The translations under genes were made by a program, and so were the position numbers. This document shows, piece after piece, positions 11,870 to 53,330 of a stretch of 64,000 nt of DNA (position 1 is its first letter; each line of letters begins with the position of its first letter). Source of the DNA: Candidatus Omnitrophota bacterium (GTDB lineage Bacteria > Omnitrophota > Gorgyraeia > Aquiviventales > Aquiviventaceae); the NCBI GenBank assembly GCA_030697665.1, contig JAUYPJ010000098.1, positions 60,544 through 124,543 on the forward strand, given 5' to 3'. Below the pieces are notes generated by a model. It did no database searches and had not been told where the DNA came from. It was given only the letters and a program-made list of their open reading frames with translations.

Positions 11870-12412
11870 TCACTCTTCCCAATTCACGATGTCGTCTTGG
11901 CCCTCAACCCCATCCCTCCCCAGCGACAACAGATCGTAGTCATGCGTCCGGTGGGTCCCAGGGCTTCGGTACTGGTAGGATTTGCCCCAGGGGTCCAGCG
12001 GCACACGCTCGATGTACGGCCCCTTCCAATTCTTGGCGGAGGCCGGGGCGGCCGTCAGCGCCTTCAACCCCTCATCGCCCGTCGGGAAGACCCCGTTATC
12101 CAGCTCGTACAGCTTCAGCGCAGTTGCCAGGTTGAGGTCGATGTCGGCCTTGGCGACGGATTTCCGCGCCTCCTCCGACCGGCCCGCCATGCGGGGGATC
12201 ACCATCGCCCCCAGGATGCCGATGATGATGACGACCAACATCAATTCCACCAGCGTGAAGCCTCGCTGTTTCCAGTAGGCGGTAGGCAGTAGGCAGTAGG
12301 CAGTCACGGGCCTTCTGCCTTCTGCGTTCTGCCTTCTGCGTTCTCGACTGTGGACGTCTCGCACATGTGCTCTCATCCTCTCACCTCTCACCTGACTTAC
12401 TGCTCCACCCAC
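11870..12412 (-). CDS. gspG: major pseudopilin GspG; start uncertain, leader in repeat array
   Basis: RGFTLVELMLVVIIIGILGAMVIPRMAGRSEEARKSVAKADIDLNLATALKLYELDNGVFPTGDEGLKALT. Confidence 0.92.
   Translation of the reverse strand: MGGAVSQVRGERMRAHVRDVHSRERRRQNAEGRRPVTAYCLLPTAYWKQRGFTLVELMLVVIIIGILGAMVIPRMAGRSEEARKSVAKADIDLNLATALKLYELDNGVFPTGDEGLKALTAAPASAKNWKGPYIERVPLDPWGKSYQYRSPGTHRTHDYDLLSLGRDGVEGQDDIVNWEE
12272..12398. repeat. composite heptamer arrays GGCAGTA, TTCTGCC and CTCACCT
   Basis: ggcagtaggcagtaggcagt ... ccttctgccttctgcgttctgccttctgc ... ctctcacctctcacct. Confidence 0.88.
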
Positions 12413-13297: not shown

Positions 13298-13975
<678 letters not shown>

Positions 13976-13982
<7 letters not shown>

Positions 13983-14527
13983 GTGGGGCCTTCCTCCCCT
14001 GCCGCGGGGGGCTTGTAATCGAGGTAGGTGGCCAACACCGCATCCTGCGTTCTCCGACCCTCCTGCCACGACAGCCTGAAGCGCGCGCTGGCGAGCCTGA
14101 TCGGGGGTTCTTGAGTCTCGGGGCCGGCTTGCTCCTGCGCCATGCCGTGTGGCAGGAGCGCCTCAGGCTCCAGAGGCACGATGTCGAGGGTCCAGGTGGC
14201 CTGTCGATGGCGCAGCGCGACGGCGCCGCTGCGCGTCTCGGCCGCCACACCGCCTTGGCTCTCCGCCTCCTGCCGCAGCTGTGCCAACTTGGCGTCAAGG
14301 AACTGGATCGCTTCCAGCCGATCTTCCACCGAGTCGAGCGTCGCCGATGCCGCGAGCAGCCCGCGCCCCACCATGACCAGGCCGATCGCCAGGATCGAGG
14401 AGGCCACCATCAACTCAACCAGCGTCAATCCTGCGATGACTGAAGAACGGAAGAACGGAAGAACGGAAGAACATGAGACGATCTCGCGTGTTCTTCGGTT
14501 CTTCAGTTCTTGAGTTCTTCGGTCCAT
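13976..14527 (-). CDS. gspI: GspI-like pseudopilin; N-terminus in octamer repeat array
   Basis: AGLTLVELMVASSILAIGLVMVGRGLLAAS; gene order. Confidence 0.72.
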
Positions 14528-19908: not shown

Positions 19909-21455
<1,547 letters not shown>

Positions 21456-22307
21456 TCAGCGCGCCACCTTGAGCCGCGCGGTCGAGATCTCGCGGATGGA
21501 CGTGTCGGCCAGGGCATGCCGATGCTTCACGTACTGCAGCCCCAGTTGGTGCTGCATCCGCGAGAGCTCCTGATCGCTGCCCTCGAGGTGCATCACCCGC
21601 GCCGCCAATTCCGCGAGCTTGCTTGAGACGAACAGCGCCGAGAGGGTCACGTCGAGCCATAGGCTCACCAGCCCCTCGATCACCTGCTCCATGGATGGTT
21701 CCACGAAGCACGGGTGTACCGGGCGCGCGGGACGTGCCGCCTCAAACAGCGCTCGGCTCGGCAGCACCTGCTCTTCCTCGATATGTTGGGACGTCATGCT
21801 CACGAACTTGGCGTAGACGACCACGACCCGCCCGAAGCGCCCGGCGAGATAACCCTCCACCAGGTATCGCTTCAGCGCGGCGACGTGCGCCGCATCAAGC
21901 TCTTCCGGCACCCCGGGAAAGGCGACGAACGATTCATTCAGCTCTTCCAGGGCGGAGGCCCCTCGCTCGCCCAGCACGACTAACTGGTCGCTTCGGGCGG
22001 CGTCCCGCGTGTCCAGCGCCGCGTTGATCAGCAGGGTGTTCAGCTCTCCCGCAAACCCCTCATCGGAGGTGATGACCACCGTGCACGAGGGGAGGTCTTG
22101 GCGAGCGACCACAAAGGGATGCTCGATGCCCCGCACATCCAGCAGGCGCGCCGCCTCCCTCAACTGCTGAGCAAACGGCTCATAGAAGTGGACCCCGCCC
22201 TGCAGGCGCCGTAACTGGACCGCCGCGCTCACCTTCAGGACATCGACGATCCCGCCGAGGCTCCTGTTGAACTCCAGGTTCTGCTTGAGCTGCGCCAAGG
22301 GCACCAT
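21456..22307 (-). CDS. atpG: F-type ATP synthase gamma subunit (diverged)
   Basis: Position between alpha and beta; VVITSDEGFAGELNTLLINAAL resembles gamma LCGG(Y/F)N region. Confidence 0.72.
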   Translation of the reverse strand: MVPLAQLKQNLEFNRSLGGIVDVLKVSAAVQLRRLQGGVHFYEPFAQQLREAARLLDVRGIEHPFVVARQDLPSCTVVITSDEGFAGELNTLLINAALDTRDAARSDQLVVLGERGASALEELNESFVAFPGVPEELDAAHVAALKRYLVEGYLAGRFGRVVVVYAKFVSMTSQHIEEEQVLPSRALFEAARPARPVHPCFVEPSMEQVIEGLVSLWLDVTLSALFVSSKLAELAARVMHLEGSDQELSRMQHQLGLQYVKHRHALADTSIREISTARLKVAR

Positions 22308-22318
22308 CTCTCACACCA

Positions 22319-22402
22319 CAGGTGATAGGTTAAAGGTGAAAGGTGAAAGGTTAAAGGGGAGGGGTCCCCTTTTACCTTTAACCTTTTACCTTTTACCTTT
22401 CC
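22319..22402. repeat. palindromic heptamer array, AGGTGAA family
   Basis: aggtgataggttaaaggtgaaaggtgaaaggttaaagggg ... ccccttttacctttaaccttttaccttttacct. Confidence 0.9.
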
Positions 22403-23853
22403 TTGATGGTTCTGAAATAGTCGAGGATCGCCTGATCCAGCTCCCGCGTGACGTCCTGGGTCAGGGTCTGCTCCCGCGCGAGCCGCTCCACCATGGCGGC
22501 GTGACGCTGGCCGCAGAACGCGAAGAACTCCCTCAGAAAGCGCCGGAGATCTTCCCCCGGGAGGACTTCGAGGATCTTCCGCTTGAACGCGTAGAACAGC
22601 AGGATGATCTCCACGAGCGCGACCGGCTTGGCCGCCTCCTGGACGAACAGCTCCCGCAACACCTCCCCGCGCCTGAGCTGGGCCATCGTCTCCTCTGAGA
22701 GCCTGGTGCGCAGCCGCGTCATGCGCAACAGGTCCCGATACTGAGCATACACCAGGCGCAGGCCTTCGCTCAACTCGCGGATGGCGGGGCACTGGACCTT
22801 GCCCCCGATCCTCGACACCGACAGCCCCAGGTCGATGGCGGGCTTGAACCCCTCGCGGAACAGCGAGGCGTTGAGGTAGATCTGCCCGTCCGTCATCGAC
22901 ACCAGGTTGGACTGGATGTAGCCGGTGAAGTCGCCCTGCAGCGTCTCGGCGATCGGGAAGAAGGTCATGGTGCCGCCTCCAAGGTCCGCCTTCAGCCTGC
23001 CGGCCCGCTCCATCAGTTGGGAGTGCACGTAGAAGATATCGCCGGGGTAGGCCTCCCGGCCCGGCGCGCGCTCCATCAGCAGCGAGAGCTGGCGGTACGC
23101 CCAGGCGTGCTTCGTCAGATCGTCGAACACCACCACGACGTCCCGCCCGCGCGCCATGAAGTACTCGCCCAGCGTCGCGGCGGTATACGGGCAGAGGTAC
23201 TGCTCAGCGGGTGAATGATCCGCGAACGCGCAAACCGCGACGGTGGATGACAGGGCCCCCGCCTGCGTGAGGAGGTGGAGGATCTTCTTGAAGGCCGTGA
23301 GGCTCCCGCCGATCCAGCAGTAGATGCAGATGAGGTCCTGCCCCCGCTGATTCAAAATCGCGTCCAGCGCCAGGCTGGTCTTGCCGGTCTGGCGATCGCC
23401 GAGAATCAGCTCCCGCTGCCCCTTGCCGATCGGGATGACGAGGTCCACCATCTTCGCGCCGGTGAGGAAGGGCTCGCTCAGCGGCTCCCGATCCATGACG
23501 CTCGCGCCCTCCCGAAACACGGGACACAGTTCCCCCGCTGGAATCGGCTCCCGCCCGTCCAGCGGCTCGCCCAGGCAGTTCACGACCCGTCCGACGAACG
23601 CCTCTCCGACGGGAACCGACACGAGCTCCGACTGGCCGGAGACGGTGTCCCCCACGTGGAGCCGCCGATCGTCCCCCAGCACCATGACGGACACGGCGGA
23701 AGGATCGAAGCCGATCACCATGCCCTTGACGCCGTCGCCAAGCTCCACCACCTGGCCGTACAGGCATGACGGCAGCCCGTGCACCCTCACGATCCCGTGC
23801 TTGATCTCCCGCACGGTCCCGATCTCTTTGATCTCCAGGCTCGGGATCTGCAT
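22393..23853 (-). CDS. atpA: F-type ATP synthase alpha subunit
   Basis: ELILGDRQTGKTSLALDAILNQRG, VFDDLTKHAWAYRQLSLLMERAPGREAYPGDIFY. Confidence 0.95.
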   Translation of the reverse strand: MQIPSLEIKEIGTVREIKHGIVRVHGLPSCLYGQVVELGDGVKGMVIGFDPSAVSVMVLGDDRRLHVGDTVSGQSELVSVPVGEAFVGRVVNCLGEPLDGREPIPAGELCPVFREGASVMDREPLSEPFLTGAKMVDLVIPIGKGQRELILGDRQTGKTSLALDAILNQRGQDLICIYCWIGGSLTAFKKILHLLTQAGALSSTVAVCAFADHSPAEQYLCPYTAATLGEYFMARGRDVVVVFDDLTKHAWAYRQLSLLMERAPGREAYPGDIFYVHSQLMERAGRLKADLGGGTMTFFPIAETLQGDFTGYIQSNLVSMTDGQIYLNASLFREGFKPAIDLGLSVSRIGGKVQCPAIRELSEGLRLVYAQYRDLLRMTRLRTRLSEETMAQLRRGEVLRELFVQEAAKPVALVEIILLFYAFKRKILEVLPGEDLRRFLREFFAFCGQRHAAMVERLAREQTLTQDVTRELDQAILDYFRTIKER

Positions 23854-23861
23854 CTGTTCTC

Positions 23862-23932
23862 TTAAGGTTAAAGGTTAAAGGGGAAAGGTCAAAGGGTCCC
23901 TTTCACCTTTTACCTTTCACCTTTCACCTTGT
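23862..23932. repeat. palindromic heptamer array, AGGTGAA family; encodes atpF C-terminus KVKGER*
   Basis: aaggttaaaggttaaaggggaaaggtcaaagggtccctttcaccttttacctttcacctttcacctt. Confidence 0.9.
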
Positions 23933-24650
23933 TATTGCGGAGAAACTGCGTCGCTTTGTGGAGCCGATTCCGCAGGCTTCCGTCGATCACGAGGGAGCCG
24001 ATGTGAATCACCAGGCCCGTGATCAGCTCGGGGTCGAGCCGCTCCTCCAACGTGACCTCGGCGCCCAGCTTCTCCGACAGCGCCCGGCGCAACCCGGACC
24101 GCTCATCGGCCGTCAGCGCGCATGCGGAGGTGACGACGGCCTGCGTCGCGCGGTCCGAAAAACGATCCGTTCCTAACGCGCTGATCTCCCCGATGAGCTC
24201 ATTGAGGACGTGGTGCTGGAACTCCGCCGTGTTGGCGTGGGTCAACACGTGCCGGATCATTTCCGTTGAGAGCGCCATCGCATCCGTCTCGATCGCGGAG
24301 GAGAGGTTCACCCGGATTTTCTCAAGCTCCGCCTTGCCTCGCGCCAGGATCTTCTCCGCTTCTTGCTTCGCCTGGGTTTCGGCGTTGGCCCGCGACGTTT
24401 CGGCGTCCTGTTGCGCCGCTTCCACCAGGAGACGCGCCTCCTCCCTGCCCCGCTCCACTTCGGCGGCCCGTTCCTGCTGGGCCCGGTGGAGCTCGTCTTT
24501 GAGCTGGGACTCTTTCACCAGCGCCTCCTCCTGCAACGCCTGCAACCGCTGGAGCGCAGTATTCAGTTGCCGGTAGAAGAGCAACCGGAGGGCGATGAGA
24601 AGCCCCGCAAACGTCAGCACTTGTAATACCACGAGCTGCCACGCCGGCAT
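23910..24650 (-). CDS. atpF: F-type ATP synthase b subunit fused to delta-like C-terminal domain
   Basis: N-terminal TM plus long helix, C-terminal SALGTDRFSDRATQAVVTSACALTADERSGLRRALSEKLGAEVTLEERLDPELITGLVIHIGSLVIDGSLRNRLHKA (delta signature). Confidence 0.82.
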   Translation of the reverse strand: MPAWQLVVLQVLTFAGLLIALRLLFYRQLNTALQRLQALQEEALVKESQLKDELHRAQQERAAEVERGREEARLLVEAAQQDAETSRANAETQAKQEAEKILARGKAELEKIRVNLSSAIETDAMALSTEMIRHVLTHANTAEFQHHVLNELIGEISALGTDRFSDRATQAVVTSACALTADERSGLRRALSEKLGAEVTLEERLDPELITGLVIHIGSLVIDGSLRNRLHKATQFLRNNKVKGER

Positions 24651-24659
24651 CTTTTTCCT

Positions 24660-24741
24660 CAAGGTGATAGGTGAAAGGTCAAAGGTGAAAGGAACTTCCT
24701 TCCCTTTCCCCTTTTACCTTTAACCTTTTACCTTTCACCTG
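24660..24741. repeat. palindromic heptamer array, AGGTGAA family
   Basis: aaggtgataggtgaaaggtcaaaggtgaaagg ... ccccttttacctttaaccttttacctttcacct. Confidence 0.9.
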
Positions 24742-24951
24742 TTATTTGAAGAGCGTGTACACCATCAGCAGCGCCAAGATGGCGATCGCCTCGGCGAACA
24801 GGAACGCCACGATCATCGAGAGCAGGATCCGGGGCGAGGCCGAGGGGTTTCGGGCGACCGCTTTCACGGCGGCGTAGCCCACCACCCCGATCACCGCGGC
24901 GGGCCCCAGCGTGCTCAACACCATAATCAAGATGATCGTCAGATGCTGCAT
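24742..24951 (-). CDS. atpE: F-type ATP synthase c subunit (69 aa)
   Basis: Two-helix hairpin with GYAAVKAVARNPSASPRILLSMIVAFLFAEAIAILALLMVYTLF. Confidence 0.92.
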   Translation of the reverse strand: MQHLTIILIMVLSTLGPAAVIGVVGYAAVKAVARNPSASPRILLSMIVAFLFAEAIAILALLMVYTLFK

Positions 24952-24954
24952 CGT

Positions 24955-25172
24955 TAAAGTAGGCAGAAGGCAGAATGCAGAAAGCAGACTTCCAGATCCC
25001 TATGCCCATGCATCACAGTCGCCCTCCGCCTACTGCCTTCCGCCTTCTGTCTTTTGCTGCCTTCTGCCATCAGCCTTCTGCATTCTGTCTCTTGCTGCCT
25101 TCTGCCTACTGCCTTCTGCTTTCTGGAGGCTATGGACTATCGACTATCGACTATGGACTATGGACTATGGAC
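24955..25172. repeat. long composite array: GCAGAAG / TTCTGCC then CTATGGA
   Basis: ggcagaaggcagaatgcagaaagcag ... gccttctgcctactgccttctgctttctgg aggctatggactatcgactatcgactatggactatggactatggact. Confidence 0.9.
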
Positions 25173-25451
25173 TGCTGTAGTGGTTTCGACGAGGACGACG
25201 AGCTCGTTCCCCGTCATCCGCGCGATCCCCTCCCGAATTGGAACGGCCGCCTCGACGCGGGACGCGCGGCGGCCGCCCGCGCGCTCCCGCGGGCCCTTCG
25301 TCACGACCTGCACGATCCCCTCCCGCAGCCGGCAGAGAAAGGGATGATGAAAATCGAGGACGCACAGCTCGCCCTCCTCACCCGGGAGGAGCACCTCGCC
25401 GGCGTTGCCCTCGTACCATGATCGCCACGCGTCGAGCACCGATACCCTCAT
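25158..25451 (-). CDS. atpC: F-type ATP synthase epsilon subunit lacking the C-terminal helical hairpin
   Basis: EVLLPGEEGELCVLDFHHPFLCRLREGIVQV beta-sandwich; position at head of operon. Confidence 0.75.
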   Translation of the reverse strand: MRVSVLDAWRSWYEGNAGEVLLPGEEGELCVLDFHHPFLCRLREGIVQVVTKGPRERAGGRRASRVEAAVPIREGIARMTGNELVVLVETTTAVHSP

Positions 25452-25456
25452 CGTTA

Positions 25457-25490
25457 AGGTGAAAGGTAAAAGGTGAAAGGTGAAAGGGAA
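25457..25490. repeat. heptamer array, AGGTGAA family
   Basis: aaggtgaaaggtaaaaggtgaaaggtgaaagg. Confidence 0.87.
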
Positions 25491-25491
25491 G

Positions 25492-25872
25492 TCATCGGCG
25501 TTTGGACTCAAGGGCACGCTCGAGGCCCTTCAGCATCTTCCCGCATTCATCATAGCGTGCTTTAAAACCCGTATAGTTGGGTTCGTTCAGGTACCCCTTT
25601 CGAAAGGCGACGTAGAGGTGGTGGCGCGTTTCTTGAAGTTCGCCCTGCGCTCGATTGACTCCCTCAAGATAGACATTCAGGTGTCGGTTACTCCAGCCCT
25701 CGGCGAGGTTCGCCGGTGCAGAGTTCGAAGAACGCCGAATCTGTGAACCGAGCTCATACAGCTCAAACTTCGGAAAGGTCAAGGAGAGCTCGTGAATCTC
25801 CACGTGCAATTCAACGAGCTTCCTGTACACCTCCAAATCCTCAACTCCCTTCACCTCTCTCATCTGCGCCAT
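25492..25872 (-). CDS. four helix bundle protein (S23/IVP family)
   Basis: VEDLEVYRKLVELHVEIHELSLTFPKFELYELGSQIRRSSNSAPANLAEGWSNR. Confidence 0.78.
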   Translation of the reverse strand: MAQMREVKGVEDLEVYRKLVELHVEIHELSLTFPKFELYELGSQIRRSSNSAPANLAEGWSNRHLNVYLEGVNRAQGELQETRHHLYVAFRKGYLNEPNYTGFKARYDECGKMLKGLERALESKRR

Positions 25873-25951
25873 TTCCCCTTTTACCTTTCACCTATCCCCT
25901 TTTCCCTTGGGCCTCTCCCCTTTCACCTTTAACCTTTCACCTTTCACCTGT
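25872..25951. repeat. heptamer array, TTTCACC family
   Basis: ccccttttacctttcacctatccccttttcccttggg...cctttcacctttaacctttcacctttcacct. Confidence 0.85.
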
Positions 25952-25953
25952 AG

Positions 25954-26829
25954 TTACGCGAGACAGACGCGGTTTTTGCCTCCGTCTTTGGCCTGGTAGA
26001 GCGCGGCGTCCGCCTTGGCGATCAGCGCCTCCGCATCGGCGCCATCCCCCGGGAAGGTGCTCACCCCGATGCTCACCGTCGAGGGGGTGTAGAGCTCCGT
26101 CAGCGTTCGGATCCGATCCGCGACGAGCGACGCATCCCCTTTGCCGGCCCGGTCCAAGAGCGCCACGAACTCCTCGCCGCCGTATCGAAACACCAGATCG
26201 CCCTGGCGCACCGCGCCCTGGAGCACCTGCGACAGCTTGCGCAACAGCTCATCGCCGCCCAGGTGACCATTCGTATCGTTGTACTTCTTGAAATCATCCA
26301 AGTCGATGAGCAACAGCGAAAAGCGCTCAGGAGTGGATTTGGCCGTCGCCAGCTTGTTGGCCAGGCACATCTTGAAATACCGGTGGTTGTAGACCCCTGT
26401 CAATCCATCCTTCACCGACAGCTCGGCGAACTGCCGCTTCTCCGTGTGGGAGGACAACAAATTGAAGCGCTCCACCGCCCGTTGCACCACGATCCGGACT
26501 TCAGCCGCGTTGAACGGCTTGGTCACGTAGCCGTAGGCGCCCGCCTCCATCGCTTCCACCGCTGAGCTGATGAAGGTGGAGGCCGTGGCTACCACGACGT
26601 TGGTCTCCGGCGAGACCTTGAGCATCGCCTTGGCGAGCTCCACGCCGTTCATGCCGGCGCTGCGCAGCTCCGTCACGACGGCCGCCACCCGCGTCTGTTG
26701 GACCAGCTCCAGGCCGCGTTTTGGCTGATCGACGACCCAGACCTTGTAGCCGGCCTGCTTGAGCGTCTCTTCAAGAAACCGGCCGGCCTGCTGGTCGTCC
26801 TCGATGATCAACACGTTGATCTCGTCCAT
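25954..26829 (-). CDS. response regulator with GGDEF diguanylate cyclase domain
   Basis: NVLIIEDDQQAGRFLEETLKQAGYKVWV receiver; VFRYGGEEFVALL (GGEEF). Confidence 0.87.
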   Translation of the reverse strand: MDEINVLIIEDDQQAGRFLEETLKQAGYKVWVVDQPKRGLELVQQTRVAAVVTELRSAGMNGVELAKAMLKVSPETNVVVATASTFISSAVEAMEAGAYGYVTKPFNAAEVRIVVQRAVERFNLLSSHTEKRQFAELSVKDGLTGVYNHRYFKMCLANKLATAKSTPERFSLLLIDLDDFKKYNDTNGHLGGDELLRKLSQVLQGAVRQGDLVFRYGGEEFVALLDRAGKGDASLVADRIRTLTELYTPSTVSIGVSTFPGDGADAEALIAKADAALYQAKDGGKNRVCLA

Positions 26830-26844
26830 CACATCTTCGATGAG

Positions 26845-26912
26845 TCCATAGTCGATGGTCGATAGTCCATAGTAAACCGCCAACCATGGACTATGGACTA
26901 CGGACTATGGAC
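26845..26912. repeat. palindromic heptamer array, CTATGGA family
   Basis: gagtccatagtcgatggtcgatagtccatag ... catggactatggactacggactatggact. Confidence 0.9.
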
Positions 26913-27693
26913 TGCTTTTCAGGAATGCCACCCACGCCTCCTCCATCTCTGAAAGATTCCGAAACCCGTACACCGTCTTGAGCGCGTCGCGCCACTCCTG
27001 CCCGTCCCGCATGCGCCGGCAGTAGTCGACGAACCGCTCCTGTCCGTGCTGCCGGAAGAGAAACTCGATGAGGCTAGCCGCTTCCGCGTAGAACGGCTCA
27101 GGCTCGACCAACTGCTCCTTCCTCAGCGCGCAGAGCCGCTCAAGCGGGATGAACCGCTCCGAATCCACGAGCGCCTTGGCCGCCGTCAGCCGCGCGGATT
27201 TCCGCCCCTCCTCCAGGAAGCATGCGATCCCCTCGTCGAGCCACAGCGGCAGGGGCCGCCGGGAGCCGATGAACTCGCGAAAGATGATGTGCCCCAACTC
27301 ATGGGGCAGGACCAGCTCCAAAAAATCCTCCATCTCGACGTAGGTATGGAGTTCCCGCTCCACGACATTCGCGCCCGCCTCAGACCATTCCGGTTGATGG
27401 GTCATCCGCTGGTATTCGTCCCGGTCACGGTAGAGGTAGATCTTGGCGCGCTCCTCCCACGTCCAGAACCCGTCGAAGCGGGTAAAGCCGAGCTGCGTCG
27501 TGATCTGGTGGTAATGGCGCTCGGCCCTGGCGATCAGTTGGTCAAGGTACCGGGGCGGAGCGTCATGGAAGTAGACGACGAAGTGATCGCTCTTGGCGAC
27601 CTCCCACGCCTGCGGGGACGGGTCGGCCGCGGCGCGCCCCAGGGTGCTCAACAGCATGATCAAAATCATCGTCAGTCGCTGGACCATGTCCAT
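26905..27693 (-). CDS. exported gluzincin-type (peptidase MA-like) metallopeptidase
   Basis: HELGHIIFREFIGSRRPLPLWLDEGIACFLEE zinc motif; signal peptide MVQRLTMILIMLLSTLGRAAA. Confidence 0.75.
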   Translation of the reverse strand: MDMVQRLTMILIMLLSTLGRAAADPSPQAWEVAKSDHFVVYFHDAPPRYLDQLIARAERHYHQITTQLGFTRFDGFWTWEERAKIYLYRDRDEYQRMTHQPEWSEAGANVVERELHTYVEMEDFLELVLPHELGHIIFREFIGSRRPLPLWLDEGIACFLEEGRKSARLTAAKALVDSERFIPLERLCALRKEQLVEPEPFYAEAASLIEFLFRQHGQERFVDYCRRMRDGQEWRDALKTVYGFRNLSEMEEAWVAFLKSSP

Positions 27694-27694
27694 T

Positions 27695-27803
27695 AAGGTG
27701 AAAGGTGATAGGTAAAAGGGGACCTCTCCCCTCTTACCTTTTCCCTTTCACCTTTAACCGTTTACCTTCCCTTTCCCCTTTTACCTTTAACCTTTCACCT
27801 TTC
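27695..27803. repeat. palindromic heptamer array, AGGTGAA family
   Basis: aaggtgaaaggtgataggtaaaagggg ... cttaccttttccctttcacctttaaccgtttacc...ttttacctttaacctttcacctttc. Confidence 0.9.
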
Positions 27804-28595
27804 TTTGATGATCCGCTCGATGTCGTCCGGGCCGATCGGCTTGTCCGTGGTGGCCTGCCGAGGCTGGGCCCCGGCCGCCTTCGGCGCCGTCGAGGATGCC
27901 GTCCCGAAGGTCGGCGCGGTAATGGTCTTCAGTTGCTTGTGCCAGATGATGTAGAAGCTCACCCCCAGCAGGCCCAGGAACAGCACGATCCCGACGAACA
28001 GCTTCCAGACCATCACCACGGCGGTCTTGGGCCTGGCCTGGGTCAGCAGGCTCCGGGCGATCAGCAGCTCCGCTTTCACCGAATCCAAGAGCGCCAGGTT
28101 GTCCCGGTGGTCGGAGATGTGCTTCTCCGGGTTGACCGCCGGGACGCGCTGCCGCTCGATGATCTTGTTCACCTTCGCCTCGATGACGGCCCTCAGAAAC
28201 TCCCCCCGCTCCTGAAAATCGGTGTGCTCCAGCAGCTTGGCCGTCTTCTCCGCCTCCGTCCGGAGCGACTCCAGCTCCTCGATGGGAATCTGCCAGATGT
28301 CCTTGATCTCAATCTCCCGTTCGAGCGTCTCGCCCGGCTTGAGGTCGTACGAGCCGTAGACGAAGTAGGCGCCCTGCTGGCTGTCATAGGCCACCTCCAG
28401 GTCGCCCACATCCAGGATATCCTCGGACTGGAGCTCCTTGGGCAGATAGGCCTTCACCTCCGCCTTCTGCGTCTGGTCCTTGGAGGGGTTGATGGCCATG
28501 ATCCGCAGCGTGATCTCCCCCTCCGCTCCTGCGGAGCAACTGAAGAACGGAAGAACGAAAGAACTGAAGAACCATAGAACGAAGAAACGTTTCAT
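27795..28595 (-). CDS. exported/membrane protein of unknown function
   Basis: Signal peptide MKRFFVLWFFSSFVLPFFSCSAGA (octamer repeat-encoded) and C-terminal TM LFVGIVLFLGLLGVSFYIIW. Confidence 0.6.
   Translation of the reverse strand: MKRFFVLWFFSSFVLPFFSCSAGAEGEITLRIMAINPSKDQTQKAEVKAYLPKELQSEDILDVGDLEVAYDSQQGAYFVYGSYDLKPGETLEREIEIKDIWQIPIEELESLRTEAEKTAKLLEHTDFQERGEFLRAVIEAKVNKIIERQRVPAVNPEKHISDHRDNLALLDSVKAELLIARSLLTQARPKTAVVMVWKLFVGIVLFLGLLGVSFYIIWHKQLKTITAPTFGTASSTAPKAAGAQPRQATTDKPIGPDDIERIIKER
28538..28593. repeat. octamer array inside signal-peptide codons of the 27795-28595 gene
   Basis: gaactgaagaacggaagaacgaaagaactgaagaaccatagaacgaagaaacg; period 8. Confidence 0.88.
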
Positions 28596-41000: not shown

Positions 41001-43314
41001 CCCACGGGGAGACCTGGCCGGTCTGATCCTTCACCCGCGCCCGCCAGTGGTAGGTCTTGGCCGGCGCGCTGAAGGTGAAGTTGGTCTTCGTGACGGTGCC
41101 GGTCACCGCGGCCCCGGCATAGGCCACCGGCGAGCCTTCAAGAAGGCTCCACTCCGCCCTGTAGAGGTTGGCGACCTCACTCGCGCTCAGGGCCCGGGAC
41201 CAGATGCCGACTTCGTCGATCTGGCCGTTGAAAAACGTACTCGTCACCCCTACCCAGTTCTGACGATACACACCGATGGATGCGGGCGCCGAAGCATAAT
41301 TCACCGTGGTAGCCCCTAAGGCACGGCTGGCGACCTCGACCCCATCTCGATACGCATAGAGCGTCCCATTGCTGCCGGTAGAGCGCAGTACGACGTGATG
41401 CCACGCTCCGTCATTGACTGCGCCAGTCGTCGCGGTGAGTTCATGATACACTGCCTCCGTTCCACGCACGGCAACACTCAGAAATCCGCTCCCCGTCACT
41501 AAAAAATGAACGTACGGGTTGTGGGCATTGCCGTCATCTTGCCGGAAATAAATGAGTTGACCTGTTGTCGCAGACGTTTTGATCCAGGCGGCAATCGTAA
41601 ACCCTCCCGTGCCAAAATCCCAGGCGGTCTTGTTTCCTAAGTCAACGTACTGCGTCGTCCCGTTGAAGCTCAGGGCGTTGCTGAGCTTGCCCGCCACGAT
41701 CGTGGGGCCGTTGACGGCGGTACCGTCGTTGGAACCCTTGGCATCCCCGACCACACCACTCCCGCTGGTTTTGTCCATCTGCCAGTAACTGATCAGCCCG
41801 GTGCCGAGGGTCCCGCTCGCGTCAGGGTCGAAGAGAGATCCGTCGAAGGCCCCTCCCACCTCCTTGATCTCGATCTGGGGGATCAATGTCGCAGAGGCGA
41901 GAGTCGGGGCGGCGCTGCTGGGCGACATCGAGAACGTGAACGTCGCCGCGTTGGTCGTGATCTCCCCACCGATGGCGATCGGAGTCGTACCGCCAGCTTG
42001 GAGCTGCGTGAGCGCTGTGGGGGCCTTCGGAGGGCCGCCCACGAAGAAGTCGGCTCCGAGGTCGTTGCCCGCCCGCACGTCGCCATCCAGGTCGGTGGTC
42101 ACGGGCAGGTTCGTATCCGTCGCCATGCCCGGCCAGCCCGCCCCGCGCAGCCTCGAGGCGAACAGCAGGTGGAGATCTTCGCCGCCGACCGCGAGGGTGG
42201 TCAGGTGGCCGGAAGCGTCCAGGCCGGTTGTGTCGTTTGCGCCGCTCCTCCCCGAGGGGGTGCCGGTGTAGGCGTTGTAGTCGTCGGTCAACGCGCTGCC
42301 GCCGGTATTGTTCAGCGGGGTGCTGGAAAAGCCAAACACCACGTTGCTCTTCACCACAAGCGGCGAGGAGGCGGAGAGGTTCTTCAACAGATCCGCCGCG
42401 TTGCCGCTGGAGTAAAAGGTGTTGCCGTAGAGATAGCTGGTGCCGGAAGCTGAGGAGGTGAGGTAGAGTTGGCAGTCCGTGGCGTTGCGGTGGCTGTCGA
42501 TGAGGATGTTGCTGGAGAGCTTCAGAGCGCCTGAGGCCACCGAGACGACATAGCCGGACGTCGCAGAGGATGACTTGCGCAGGAGACACCCTGAGACGCG
42601 CGCCTCGCTCGTACCGCTTGTCAGGCTCATCAACGGACTTGTGCTGCTGCCGGTTGATTCCAGATACAGGTTGGTCAAACGCAGGTAGCCCACCCCTGAG
42701 GCAAGGAGCGAGCCGGTTGAGCCGGTGAACTTGACCCCTGCTCCGCCTTGGCCCACGACCCCCTTGTGCCGTTGGCTTGAGGCGGCGCGAATCTCCACGT
42801 AGTTGGCCGCCGACGTCTTCCAGGCGCCCAGCGTCAGCGTGGAGGCGAGGGTTTCTTGGAGGGACGTCTCCGCCACGGCGATCGCAGAATTGCCGGCGTC
42901 CGAGATGGTGACGTAGTTGGTCGTGCCCCGCTGCACCCGCTCACCGGACAGGAAGACGCCGTCGATCTGCTTGAGGAGGATCTGGGTGGAGGTGGCATGG
43001 ACCATGATGGCGGTCGCGCCTGATCTGGCGCCGACGACCGATGAGCCGTCCGGGATCGCACCGGTGATGCCGCTGTGGGCGAACACTTTGGTGGTCGCCG
43101 CGGTGAGATCGCAGGCCCTCGCATCCCAGGTGATGAGGCTGGTGTAGTCGCCTCCGGTGGCCTTGATCGTGGAGACGAACTCCGTCGCCGCGTAGGCAGT
43201 CGATAGTCCATAGTCCATAGTCCATAGTCCACAGACGACGGCGAGAAGCGCCAGCCGCTTCAGACTCCTGACACCTCCGACGATGGGGTGACGTTGACGC
43301 CGCGGCGCGCTCAT
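29080..43314 (-). CDS. giant (4744 aa) secreted surface protein with about five LamG/concanavalin-like modules, Ig/filamin-like modules, two Gly-rich modules and a C-terminal coiled coil
   Basis: Single uninterrupted ORF; repeated GAWNF..GLSFDGVDDYVDLG LamG signatures; TAQDRFGN Ig-like repeats; ESQATQAK repeats near C-term; signal peptide ending STAYA-ATEF. Confidence 0.92.
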   Translation of the reverse strand: MSAPRRQRHPIVGGVRSLKRLALLAVVCGLWTMDYGLSTAYAATEFVSTIKATGGDYTSLITWDARACDLTAATTKVFAHSGITGAIPDGSSVVGARSGATAIMVHATSTQILLKQIDGVFLSGERVQRGTTNYVTISDAGNSAIAVAETSLQETLASTLTLGAWKTSAANYVEIRAASSQRHKGVVGQGGAGVKFTGSTGSLLASGVGYLRLTNLYLESTGSSTSPLMSLTSGTSEARVSGCLLRKSSSATSGYVVSVASGALKLSSNILIDSHRNATDCQLYLTSSASGTSYLYGNTFYSSGNAADLLKNLSASSPLVVKSNVVFGFSSTPLNNTGGSALTDDYNAYTGTPSGRSGANDTTGLDASGHLTTLAVGGEDLHLLFASRLRGAGWPGMATDTNLPVTTDLDGDVRAGNDLGADFFVGGPPKAPTALTQLQAGGTTPIAIGGEITTNAATFTFSMSPSSAAPTLASATLIPQIEIKEVGGAFDGSLFDPDASGTLGTGLISYWQMDKTSGSGVVGDAKGSNDGTAVNGPTIVAGKLSNALSFNGTTQYVDLGNKTAWDFGTGGFTIAAWIKTSATTGQLIYFRQDDGNAHNPYVHFLVTGSGFLSVAVRGTEAVYHELTATTGAVNDGAWHHVVLRSTGSNGTLYAYRDGVEVASRALGATTVNYASAPASIGVYRQNWVGVTSTFFNGQIDEVGIWSRALSASEVANLYRAEWSLLEGSPVAYAGAAVTGTVTKTNFTFSAPAKTYHWRARVKDQTGQVSPWVAFGGNAETETDLMTLTGRTINANTTWADDQVFTNLLITNNAVVTVDSINKVGGAGQITAEVLGNLVVDSGASITANRTGYGSTSGPGQGGATYACARTGGGGAGYGGAGGAGYARGGGSYGSASQPIDMGSGGGHAHEPCQSTTGGGGSGGGALKLTVTGTLAVNGSVSANGGDLVGCNGQGGCGGGGSGGSLWFEAGTLAGTGSISANGGNGAGGGDGSGGGAGGRIVVYYTAKTFAGTLTAAGGTGRGAGGAGTISLELAHPPTSVGQFQADGVTAIPTGQATNNQMAVFKFSMTHEERSATLTPQIEVKEVGVPFNESGVLEGPAVAYAGAALTGTVTKTDIAYGQKAYHWRARVKDSKGNYSRWVAFGGNAETAADVTTLEGESLTGAVTWNADKTFTNLHITNGAVVTVDSFNKGGGAGQIVVNVIGDLTIDAGAAISADGRGYGPSSGPGAGCSAGCGSHRGGGGYGGVGSPGTCGGGGGTYGSSTQPTDMGSGGGGGCEGSGSSGAGSMKFVVGGTLTVNGTISAMGGNGVHWGGGGSGGSVWTEVGTLGGSGSISVNGGSSASGGGGGGRMALYYAAKTYTGTLSATGGAGFGPAGAGTIIESRISVAPMLLTPADKATHQRRKPTLTFKATDADGDYLRYKIVLAEDSAFSVGLQTFDQTASQVGWSGQDADGGKAYASGTTATYTLQTDLVRGKTYYWKAHAIDPAGSNVWSPVSVVRSFTVGPTLTITVPNGGEGLAVGQPTTITWTSQGPIPNVKLSYSLNNGADGYPHPIADSTPNDGTEAWTVPDVLSSQVKVKIVDVDDGTTNDVSDATLTIGQPTLKITSPNGGEAWSPSEIRPITWTSSGAIPYPLTLEYTKDGATFKTLATGEANDGMFDWTIPWDLSDTVKVKLSTAFARFFKDASSFDFGLGTLTNTELSGTGLSAKVQLAKDQEVSRLPSLGAWNFKEGSGATTVDLSGKGNTGTLTNGPTWTTGKLGNGLSFDGVDDYVDLQTLPIASGDAFTIAGWIKLSASQGDGRKFFSTLNVREGGVSSGATFGVGMGVINTGHDGINSNSLFLQTGKGHWSWSVSSSPTNSISQTNRWYHVAVTVSNATSTPPTVTFYIDGVKQTATPWGDGNAAISYGTDHNAARIGGSHTPGSPGYDTNYFNGLIDELAIYPKVLSVEEIAALYNGGTGITVGGGTVYVPSGTFTSRIFDTGGNTGFGTVAWTGTLLSADVGTVGSWHFDETTGTIAADKSGSSNTGTLTNGPTWTTGKVGNALQFDGTNDYVDLGNGASVQLGGTDKSFTLAAWAKRASSGTGDVIVLQGVGATNQGLTMMYRAANSFTCGFYGNDLDTSATYPDVNEWHHWVCTYDGATNARKIYRDGVLTASDTAASDYVGSGGTRIGMAPWDVSGYFGGLIDEVRIYNRVLTAGEVVAVYQTGSLPFLRARSSNDPAITGAPDFVTCPFLTSGQDLSGGCVKDGDRYLQYQVSMATSDLTVTPSLDDLTINYDSTTILSDLSDAAFAIKQPKLTFIQQPSGTATAGVAFAQQPKVAVQTLSGQTITTDQSTEVTLLLATGTGALTGTKTVKVVNGVAAFTGLSYNLSENIALNAVASPNAAAALSTPIAIGSATAKAISISGITDPIAAGDPSDVMVTIRDQFGNLATDYTGTIHFTSSDPKAALPPDFSFGTSGASAGWVQTSDADFSAGTLSNAAISGRGEAADVVLSLDAPVTFTEGFSMTTLRDSSTTAEWDEARGVVRLTPDYKADASLAGAWLFEEAGGVRADATGKGNTLGDINTVASSAENKEGERSAQLAAAGSEALVITVSALDAATSALRITGADQPIAVSAWVKPAGVGSPMGIVSLSKPEHRHWLLALDSANKVVFSLSENGTAERNAVGATALVPGTWYQVAGVYNDTEIRVYVNGLLDSSTSNPLAHTQGIFPWEADTDRPNFAIGHTGDPGAGFFNGLIDEVAVFSRALAPADVASVYEKGLASVVKYAPSAVAQSLTVDAIADSIASATLNATADLPAGSAISYFLSADGGKTWELATNLTTHTFAAPGSDLRWKAQLSTTNPSVTPTLKDVTISHATAYVSSGTLESSTKEVKADSFGTLSWTASAPAGTGVKFQLATNNDNLTWSYKGPDGTANSYYTTPGAPIHAGHNGQKFVRYKAFLAGAPANGLVSYWNMDEASGSTVADAVGANAGTATGTAVVAGKLGNARAMNGGSVSVANESNFDFSGPMTVAFWAYRTSSSSPQHLFGKRTGCTPAINYQMHWGTSSMGWGVGTSSSNLPLNTWTHIVGTFDGSTFRLYFNGVANASGAGSLGALNNDPLTIGTAGSCAPFGGQLDEVGIWNRALSAEEIATLYNGGTGLSAAAAVSTPVLSEVNLGYNTTAGAVGTHTFPKGVTLKAVGEQSVKVQDVVLSTLSSTQSGITVTPAAPTQLGFTQQPPSAMAAGSPFTVKAAVQDTLGNTVTSDNATAITLAVGKGTASLQGALTKTVVSGVATFGDLSYQKAETMAITASGGGYTSATSADVAVGPAAANKLAFTTVPAGDSVVVGARARYTVTAQDRFGNAQPAHGGLTVPLTSSSVSAGKAFYDAATGGTPITHLTLADGMARGDCWYLDEKVGAYAIATTHASLANASHSLNVTAAPAVRLAVSGETAAVTGVAATLTITAYDTYGNVAASYTGDKSVTFSGANSSPSPSAKNPACTDKAGSDVAFGTPMTMTFTNGAASCSMKLYKVETAAVKATSGSLATAETDALSVTVRHGPADHVMFKGSIPVPQPANKFEAGVPFVLGVLQAVDRYDNVADGGSGSALYSGDKIVTYALSGTADSPDGSTADAYTNSVSFLNGLSTTLLTTMLYRAQATSVIPHATDLTGADVASNAIKVVAGPVAKLSFYQQPSTTSLTNVALAQQPKVAVADQYGNPSTSASDQITLTASLTNGTFTPVTNGALTGDALTVTTTNGLAAFSGINYSYPEPIYLRASSSSKVAPDVYSFRITLSTGVEGALTSGALAEPATLSSTAYSAESRVAVFDVKVTDTGVDGYPIKIKQLAITRGTTADTTGGWLNVIGGASLSDGSTTMLGAVTADALAFGSGTSTVFTVANGTSKTYTLTLYLKPLLPAGIDGKKLAFDIDPNDDLMVDPVGSSFPAADALISSLTVDVTATKFVVLGIGATAAAGVPMAITVSATDVNGNLDTQYAGPKELVFSGANPSTSGQKPTCTNFAGVPMEFGQVTLVDFLNGRNTSAVSMTLYKAEGVAVKAATSDVMIATSSQDDLELIVTGGTPAKLSWHTQPEPVAVASAPWRLFKVSVADAYGNATPGAATVKMMPSVGCTTKLGSADTVPTESGVATFNNFAVTCAAYPAILTVNATGAGLTETGASSTVTVAEKFAITAKAIDSVNGGALTEVTLKIMDAATGQPVTGLTNPMTGNSPFIFSLPFGTYDFNFTKEAYVETTVQKLADVAADVVDGAYDANVIWTVFVTSVAESLADYRVLSNFVYDEPVDRVNASVRLEKRGRQVLSDPINTLKSCTLQVFDSSDAATPIYETSLPQPDANGNYWFKIDKAVASTKFVSGRTYFAKLAVRYGGPILETNVAYTAVTTFDIGISARLKILTDEIKSEVAGVQTTVASEAEATRSLMEFRVMAESQATQAKISTESALTKAKIAAESQATQAKVAAESQTTQAKVADVKADAQKILTATDTTLPSKIEETRKDVEAARQEVETARKSEILNRESTVKLGETLMIRYRTYPGLAPILDLYDGRNVPRINMAPMTEIGQSGIYEYAVAFLNTWGRGDFTIVCSESTKGTMDAAIITALSSSIEEVAGQVSAVMGSTSEIGAVKAGVMDLRALTGEVNSQFSVLESALAKISGDMAGKLEAVAASANELTSVHGQLSKMADVIKDLTGQTGMNLEKLYQVSKDKKEDIVYLKNKAQQLKAAMEMNQKMVDNIANKPITQTWFEFR
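43198..43234. repeat. heptamer array inside signal peptide of giant gene, CTATGGA family
   Basis: gtcgatagtccatagtccatagtccatagtccac. Confidence 0.9.
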
Positions 43315-43322
43315 GCTAGACT
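43294..43322 (+). promoter_or_regulatory. reiterated TA-cassette promoter, copy 1
   Basis: TTGACG-N17-TAGACT with TGC extended -10; overlaps the minus-strand start of the giant gene. Confidence 0.65.
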
Positions 43323-43343
43323 CCTAACTAGGAGGGAGGAGAG

Positions 43344-43544
43344 ATGGGGCACGTCACTGATCGCCATGTGACCATCAAAGAACTGCAAAAAATGGGCTAT
43401 CCGGTCATTCCTGGTAACGAATACATCCCGAAGGAATGGCTGCCTAAGAAACCTGTGTCGTTGGAGACGGTGCGACGACGCCTTGCCAAAATCAGAGGCA
43501 GTCTGGCGCAGACCGTTGCCGACATGCGGGACGAGGAAAGCTAA
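43344..43544 (+). CDS. putative VapB-type antitoxin
   Basis: 66-aa ORF directly upstream of PIN toxin. Confidence 0.6.
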   Translation: MGHVTDRHVTIKELQKMGYPVIPGNEYIPKEWLPKKPVSLETVRRRLAKIRGSLAQTVADMRDEES

Positions 43545-43550
43545 CCCTCC

Positions 43551-44000
43551 GTGCTCTACTTCCTTGATACCAGCGCCCTGGTTAAACGCTATCGCGCCGA
43601 AACAGGCACTGAGATTGTCGATGGCTTGTTCCAGGAGGCAGTCAACACGCTGGTGATCTCCGCACTGTCGATAGCGGAAACTGCGCGAGCGGTGGATACC
43701 CATGTCAGGCGTGGCGAAATTTCCGTTGGCGATGCCCGCTTGGCCATTGCCCGCTTGTATACGGAGTGTCACCGGGGAACCCTCGCTGTGCTTGAGGTTC
43801 AGCGTCGCTACATCTTCCGCGCGAACGAATTGATCCTGCAATTCCACCTCACTGCCGCTGATGCGATTATCTTGGCCACTGCCCTGACCTTGGCTCCAGA
43901 AACCCCTCTCTTCGTCTGCGCCGATACCCGTTCCGGCCTGCTGCGCGTCGCTGAAGCTTGCGGGCTCTCCACCCTCAATCCCCTGAGTCCTTCCAGCTAG
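43551..44000 (+). CDS. PIN-domain toxin (VapC-like)
   Basis: MLYFLDTSALVKRYRAETGTEIVDGL ... LTAADAIILATALTL. Confidence 0.87.
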   Translation: MLYFLDTSALVKRYRAETGTEIVDGLFQEAVNTLVISALSIAETARAVDTHVRRGEISVGDARLAIARLYTECHRGTLAVLEVQRRYIFRANELILQFHLTAADAIILATALTLAPETPLFVCADTRSGLLRVAEACGLSTLNPLSPSS

Positions 44001-44200
44001 CCTGCCTCCTCTGCCATTCGCGCTTGCGGCGGTGAGGTCGCAAGCGATGGCATCCCAGGTGATGAGGCTCGTGTAGTCGCCCCCGCTGGCTTTGATGGTG
44101 GAAACGAACTCCGTCGCATCCGCGGCGAAGACGATGGATCGTCCACCGTCCACCGTCCACAGTCCACAGAGAACCAAGAAGCTAAAGAACGGAAGAACTG
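44000..44200 (-). pseudogene. truncated duplicate of the 5' end of the giant LamG gene
   Basis: Minus-strand reading CGLWTVDGGRSIVFAADATEFVSTIKASGGDYTSLITWDAIACDLTAAS versus giant protein CGLWTMDYGLSTAYAATEFVSTIKATGGDYTSLITWDARACDLTAAT, then sequence diverges. Confidence 0.8.
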
Positions 44201-44215
44201 AAGAACGGAAGAACT
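44136..44215. repeat. heptamer (CCACCGT) plus octamer (GAAGAACG) arrays next to truncated giant-gene copy
   Basis: ccaccgtccaccgtccacagtccacag; gaacggaagaactgaagaacggaagaac. Confidence 0.82.
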
Positions 44216-44271
44216 GGAATAGCTTTACACCTCGGAATAGCTTTACAGCGTCCTCGGTGCCTGCCGGCTGC

Positions 44272-44300
44272 TTGACGGCGGATGCCGCATCGGCTATACT
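44272..44300 (+). promoter_or_regulatory. promoter of second TA cassette
   Basis: TTGACG-N17-TATACT. Confidence 0.6.
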
Positions 44301-44322
44301 TAACTTCCGAAAGGAGAACATC

Positions 44323-44511
44323 ATGCGTCTCTCGCTTCAAGATGTCGAGCAGGCCATTGAGCAGTTTCCCGCTCAGGACCAACAGAAACTCTTAGCCGAG
44401 TTACCCCAGTTGCTGAAAATTTCGGCTGCTGATCTTGCGTACCTGAAGCTTGCCGAAGCGTCCTTCGAGTTCTGGGAGAATTCGGACGACGCGGTGTATG
44501 ACACCCTGTAA
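44323..44511 (+). CDS. putative antitoxin of a PemK/MazF module
   Basis: MRLSLQDVEQAIEQFPAQDQQKLLAELPQLL...; SD aaaggaga upstream; overlaps truncated PemK-like frame. Confidence 0.6.
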   Translation: MRLSLQDVEQAIEQFPAQDQQKLLAELPQLLKISAADLAYLKLAEASFEFWENSDDAVYDTL

Positions 44512-44664: not shown

Positions 44665-44770
44665 GGCCTCGCCGCACGCGTTGACCCTTCGACTCGCTCT
44701 GCTCGCTCAGGGTCAATCCTGCCTCGCACCGAGTGCCGTGCTCGGCACGAGGTGAGCGAAGCCGAACGGA

Positions 44771-44799
44771 TTGACGCCGCGGCGGGCTCATGCTAGACT
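44771..44799 (+). promoter_or_regulatory. reiterated TA-cassette promoter, copy 2
   Basis: TTGACG-N17-TAGACT, nearly identical to copies at 43294 and 46255. Confidence 0.68.
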
Positions 44800-44820
44800 C
44801 CTGTTCAGGAGGTCAACAAG

Positions 44821-46200: not shown

Positions 46201-46254
46201 TTCCGCCACTCTCCCCTTCGCCGCGAAGACCGTCGACCGGCCATCGCCGTTGGA

Positions 46255-46283
46255 TTGACGTCGCGGCGGGCTCATGCTAGACT
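46255..46283 (+). promoter_or_regulatory. reiterated TA-cassette promoter, copy 3
   Basis: TTGACG-N17-TAGACT. Confidence 0.68.
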
Positions 46284-46310
46284 CCTGGTTAAGGGGGAAG
46301 GAGGCAATCC

Positions 46311-46860: not shown

Positions 46861-46938
46861 CGTGGGACGTGCCGTCCAGTGACGTTGGCACCCCTGCGCG
46901 GCTCCCCCGCGCGGGGTCTGTGTCCGGTGTCCGTTGGA

Positions 46939-46967
46939 TTGACGCCGCGGCGCGCTCATGCTTGCCT
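46939..46967 (+). promoter_or_regulatory. decayed copy 4 of the reiterated promoter (no cassette downstream)
   Basis: TTGACGCCGCGGCGCGCTCATGC then TTGCCT instead of TAGACT. Confidence 0.5.
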
Positions 46968-46987
46968 CCCAGGTGATGAGGGGGCGC

Positions 46988-51411: not shown

Positions 51412-53232
<1,821 letters not shown>

Positions 53233-53234
<2 letters not shown>

Positions 53235-53330
53235 CACCACAGATGACACAGAATTCCACAGAAGCACAGAGTGCTGCTCGTCGAGACCTATTCTGTGTCT
53301 CTGTGGCCCTTCTGTGTTTCTGTGGTGTCA
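53233..53330. repeat. palindromic CACAGAA array; 3' arm encodes signal-peptide core of next gene
   Basis: caccacagatgacacagaattccacagaagcacag ... ttctgtgtctctgtggcccttctgtgtttctgtggtgt. Confidence 0.87.

Follow-up and report, generated by a model that had tools for sequence, protein, structure and literature searches.

How does an exported protein come by a new export signal? It is known that a single step can give a protein a signal peptide, take it away or exchange it for another, but the origin of the new sequence is usually unknown. In the Omnitrophota locus analysed here (a stretch of 64,000 nucleotides, referred to below as the window), the gene of a predicted exported metallopeptidase begins with a segment closely resembling the start of a neighbouring gene for ATPase subunit c. 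The sequence-only reading of this DNA had explained the resemblance by a duplicated gene start whose transmembrane helix found new use as an export signal next to similar arrays, and had named a nucleotide alignment of the two starts, a search for further copies and a look at orthologous peptidases as ways to check it. Our data support this interpretation, and the relatives supply the direction of the transfer. We regard it as very probable that a local copy of the subunit-c start now forms the core of the Sec-type signal peptide of the peptidase, this being the best explanation of the observations. The source can be assigned to one particular neighbouring gene, the direction and relative timing of the transfer can be read off, and the helix that was copied has apparently been turned round in the membrane, which makes the locus a traceable case of a bacterium building a new export signal from DNA at hand.

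The segment common to the two gene starts

Both genes lie on the minus strand and start where they had been placed before, and the DNA strings quoted for them were correct. The subunit-c gene (atpE-like, F-type ATPase, 69 aa; 24742–24951, start at 24951) is recognised by Pfam PF00137 (40.9 bits, cut-off 24), and the acidic residue of its helix 2 is the Glu in AFLFAEAIAIL. The peptidase gene (262 aa; 26905–27693, start at 27693) matches PF13485, Peptidase_MA_2 (54.4 bits, cut-off 32.4), and its translation contains the zinc motif HEXXH in the form HELGH. Codons 2–19 of subunit c, covering the first transmembrane helix (24894–24948), align with codons 5–22 of the peptidase, covering the hydrophobic core and c-region of the predicted signal peptide (27627–27681), with 47/55 identical bases, no gaps and a reading frame common to both. 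The encoded segments, QHLTIILIMVLSTLGPAA in subunit c and QRLTMILIMLLSTLGRAA in the peptidase, are identical at 14/18 residues, so that the similarity claimed earlier is present in the protein as well as in the DNA. For this pair the blastn E value was 3e-13 when a 140-base query was compared with the window and 1.7e-10 in the self-comparison of the whole window; the longest exact word common to the two segments is about 10 bases, and 2.7 kb separate them on the same strand. The similarity is confined to these 18 residues: the two-helix hairpin of subunit c is absent in the peptidase, for which Pfam gives Peptidase_MA_2 alone. A degenerate pattern allowing up to 3 mismatches hit two places only in the 2.18 Mb genome, namely the subunit-c and peptidase starts, with 0 control hits, and these were also the only two places returned when the 25-residue leader was searched as protein. 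The search for further copies thus leaves two in the genome in all.

Counted by codon position, the two segments match at 17/18, 16/18 and 13/18 bases, and this excess of change at third positions is expected if both copies remained coding and were selected as protein. It bears directly on the possibility that the copy has been preserved chiefly as a nucleic-acid element common to both starts, for example for joint translation control, with the encoded peptide being secondary. Both copies do lie at gene starts, and no obvious Shine-Dalgarno-like sequence is present upstream of either. Such a role is nevertheless very unlikely, given that the frame has been kept and the third positions have changed most, that a hydrophobic leader occupies this very place in orthologous peptidases and that the match has no clear extension into the 5' untranslated region. 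Even less probable is an assembly artefact or a chimera in the metagenome bin. The bin is a draft of 148 contigs with a contamination estimate of 5.94%, and the genus is represented by one genome, but the two copies differ at 8/55 bases with both frames open, and the gene order through the region agrees with that of the nearest relative, G020.

The identity of the two segments is far better than that of generic hydrophobic segments, the level to which it would have to fall if the earlier interpretation were wrong. For comparison, 2692 N-terminal 54-mers with 11 or more hydrophobic residues out of 18 were collected from this genome and the other loci retrieved. Leaving aside the peptidase itself, none of them matched the subunit-c segment at more than 29/54 bases (mean 17, sd 3.7), while the peptidase segment reached 46/54. 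Of the 13 common non-Met residues, 10 have the same codon, where codon usage would predict 5.0 (P = 0.002), and the identical codons include two TTG, which makes up 11% of the Leu codons here. The similarity therefore exists at the DNA level, and convergence of two N-termini merely through their richness in Leu, Ile and Met, which the hydrophobicity of both segments and the frequency of leucine-rich cores in signal peptides might suggest, is hardly credible for a pair that exceeds every hydrophobic segment of the null set, shares synonymous codons beyond usage and is unique in the genome.

Relatives, direction of copying and the donor ATPase

The named relatives retrieved with the peptidase place the genome in the phylum Omnitrophota. 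The peptidase is a long-standing neighbour of subunit c. In 22/22 loci of relatives that carry both genes, the two lie on the same strand, subunit c being 274–2025 bases downstream of the peptidase; these loci include a few genomes twice, the number of distinct genomes being slightly below 22. In these 22 Omnitrophota loci a Peptidase_MA_2 gene upstream of the ATPase cluster is therefore conserved.

The copy itself was found in none of the 22 relative loci with both genes, where the best ungapped match of the two starts is 23–30/54. Across the class, subunit c typically begins with M-[RK]-N-L-T-I-x-L-I-M-[FL]-[LI]-S-T-L-G-P-[AS], and the peptidase leaders of the same genomes are hydrophobic, unlike each other and unlike subunit c. 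Since the subunit-c start is conserved class-wide, the peptidase signals are unrelated and the copy is absent from all of these loci, the comparison indicates that subunit c is the donor and the peptidase the recipient. The orthologous peptidases, which the sequence-only reading could not consult, bear out its interpretation in this way.

The nearest relative, G020 (JACPSR010000048, a Candidatus Omnitrophota MAG), has kept the gene order and has a peptidase that is 63% identical, and its peptidase leader, MRWPHPTLTTALGACVVAVVSGEGRLWAADA, is unrelated to the copied segment. A family scan of 27 genomes for closer relatives found a clearly orthologous peptidase in G020 only. Because G020 combines the same gene order with an unrelated signal, the copying event is dated by this comparison to the time after the split from G020. 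The subunit-c segment is closer to the peptidase copy (47/55) than to its own G020 orthologue (40/55), and in a tree of the short segment the peptidase copy groups with the subunit c of its own genome, apart from all other c genes, with support 89. One residue could be taken to mean that the peptidase start was passed to subunit c instead: the peptidase has L where the relatives' subunit c has mostly L or F and the own subunit c has V. This site, however, shows just that subunit c was altered there after the copy had arisen, and as such a start is found in the subunit c of the relatives examined and in no other peptidase, transfer in the reverse direction is improbable in the extreme.

The donor belongs to an ATPase cluster (19959–25460, minus strand; Pfam) encoding epsilon, c, a b-delta fusion, alpha, gamma and beta, without subunit a. 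Subunit a was found on contig C38 only, together with another, canonical subunit c. The earlier label atpE consequently holds as far as it means subunit c, but the gene is not that of the canonical ATP synthase, whose a and c subunits are encoded on the other contig. The same window also encodes a T2SSF-type platform protein, N_methyl pseudopilins, a secretin and a 4744-residue ORF. In Omnitrophota, non-respiratory, possibly symbiotic F-type ATPase clusters adjoin type-4a pilus genes (PMC10066038), and the donor cluster resembles these in having pilus/type II secretion-like genes as its neighbours along with a giant ORF, with a second ATPase elsewhere. The published group is defined by an alpha subunit in the type-2/3 clade of an alpha-subunit tree. 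Judged from its content and neighbourhood, the donor cluster is the second, probably non-respiratory F-type ATPase of the genome. The main text of PMC10066038 mentions neither a peptidase nor signal peptides, in which respect the present locus differs. The beta subunit of this second ATPase (19959–25460, minus strand) matches the V/A-type C-terminal domain profile PF22919. A gene for a 23S rRNA-intervening-sequence protein (PF05635; 25492–25872, minus strand), with arrays on both sides, is situated between a GGDEF regulator and the epsilon gene and is absent at this place in G020.

From ATPase helix to predicted signal peptide

By inspection, the start of the peptidase reads MDMVQR-LTMILIMLLSTLG-RAAA, then DP, and the copied helix would provide a Sec-type signal peptide with its hydrophobic core. 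The core LTMILIMLLSTLG has the usual hydrophobic length of about 10–15 residues, and the A-A-A ahead of DP places small residues at −3 and −1, so signal peptidase I would probably cleave after ...RAAA and before DP. The leader is predicted to direct the export of the peptidase.

Subunit c of F-type ATPases has its two ends on the outer side, and its helix 1 runs from the outside to the inside, whereas a signal peptide runs the opposite way, with its N-terminus in. A flip of the membrane orientation was therefore probably needed: the helix which is inserted with the N-terminus outside in subunit c would be inserted with the N-terminus inside in the peptidase. The residue before the helix is H in subunit c and R in the peptidase, a change that fits the positive-inside rule and thus the change of orientation. 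The n-region of the peptidase, MDMVQR, contains one Arg and one Asp, and the Asp at position 2, which weakens the positive n-region, counts against our explanation. So do the presence of the copy in one genome only, the shortness of the segment (55 bases), the lack of a clear mechanistic footprint and the difference in family between the flanking arrays.

As to the way in which the replacement came about, local DNA copying probably put some 55 bases of the subunit-c start where the peptidase had its previous signal-peptide region, with the reading frame kept. The A-A-A cleavage site, whether preserved or newly formed where the copied DNA meets the older part of the peptidase gene, also fits the change of orientation. 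The copying may have proceeded by short-homology template switching or by a gene-conversion-like repair close to the arrays. The G020 counterpart of the junction reads GGG CGC CTC TGG GCT GCG GAT, and few bases are in common there (GGGC..GCCGCGG); judged from this one outgroup, they would fit a template switch at short homology.

In Enterobacterales, signal peptides have been gained via the insertion of whole N-terminal regions, and mobile elements, tested as a cause, were not present near the N-termini (PMC5952966). As in that study, a complete N-terminal signal segment changes here in one step between orthologues. The source was left without identification in those cases, while here the donor gene can be named; moreover, a cytoplasmic protein gained a signal there, while here one signal replaces another. 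In the open-access literature we found no direct precedent for a signal peptide whose source is a neighbouring gene or a tandem repeat. Signal-peptide replacement is thus known in outline, and what is new in the present case is the identified source in a neighbouring gene together with the probable reversal of the helix.

Seven-base arrays and other leaders of the genome

Both starts abut 7-base arrays. The similarity of the arrays suggested in the first reading does not extend to their families, which are of the CCTTTTA/TTTCACC type at the peptidase and of the TTCTGCC type at subunit c. The peptidase array (CCTTTTACCTATCACCTTTCACC; 27699–27805, minus strand), seen in the sequence and in blastn matches among the intergenic arrays, is directly upstream of the start codon, and the array region that precedes the start of subunit c (24958–25125, minus strand) has matches to 12314, 13896 and other places. 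In a lag analysis of 224 kb of the genome, 7 was the dominant short period. Intergenic heptanucleotide direct repeats, TAACTGA, are known in marine Beggiatoaceae and some Cyanobacteria (PMC4679880). The arrays described here are similar to these in consisting of 7-base direct repeats directly upstream of start codons, but they belong to several 7-base families, and several of them run into the coding sequence of leader peptides.

The gene that immediately precedes the peptidase (27795–28595, minus strand) provides an example: its leader MKRFFVLWFFSSFVLPFFS... is encoded by TTCGTTCTATGGTTCTTCAGTTC..., a 7-base array of the GTTCTTC type (28500–28595), and its G020 orthologue has a well conserved body and an unrelated leader. 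Array-encoded leaders were also found in the 4744-residue ORF (LWTMDYGLST), the secretin (LWTMDYGLWT), the ORF at 43311–44324, the TPR protein at 53243 and three pseudopilins. Leader or prepilin-leader coding DNA of these and other exported proteins that includes, or is made up entirely of, short tandem arrays, mostly of 7-base units, is located at 12270–12345, 13845–13925, 14410–14500, 43190–43314, 44130–44324 and 49530–49585 on the minus strand and at 51465–51503 and 53285–53330 on the plus strand.

With these other leaders encoded by 7-base array repeats, leaders here seem to absorb local DNA, and the atpE copy is a case in which the local source was the start of a neighbouring gene instead of an array. 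No other copy of a gene start was detected among 181 ORFs in 224 kb, beyond arrays, intergenic repeats and ordinary family similarity, so that subunit c is no general donor. A pair of starts sharing one Rossmann-fold motif, for instance, was set aside as ordinary protein-family similarity. Whether the leaders of exported proteins in this lineage have been repeatedly rebuilt from local DNA, mostly from 7-base arrays, with repeat-associated copying as a standing source, is a proposal we make tentatively, giving it slightly less than an even chance. Taken with the array-encoded leaders of the same genome, the present case makes the origins of signal peptides directly testable. In the window a promoter-like sequence, TTGACGCCGCGGCG..CTCATGCTAGACT, is present in four near-identical copies (43294–43325, 44768–44812, 46252–46297 and 46931–46969).
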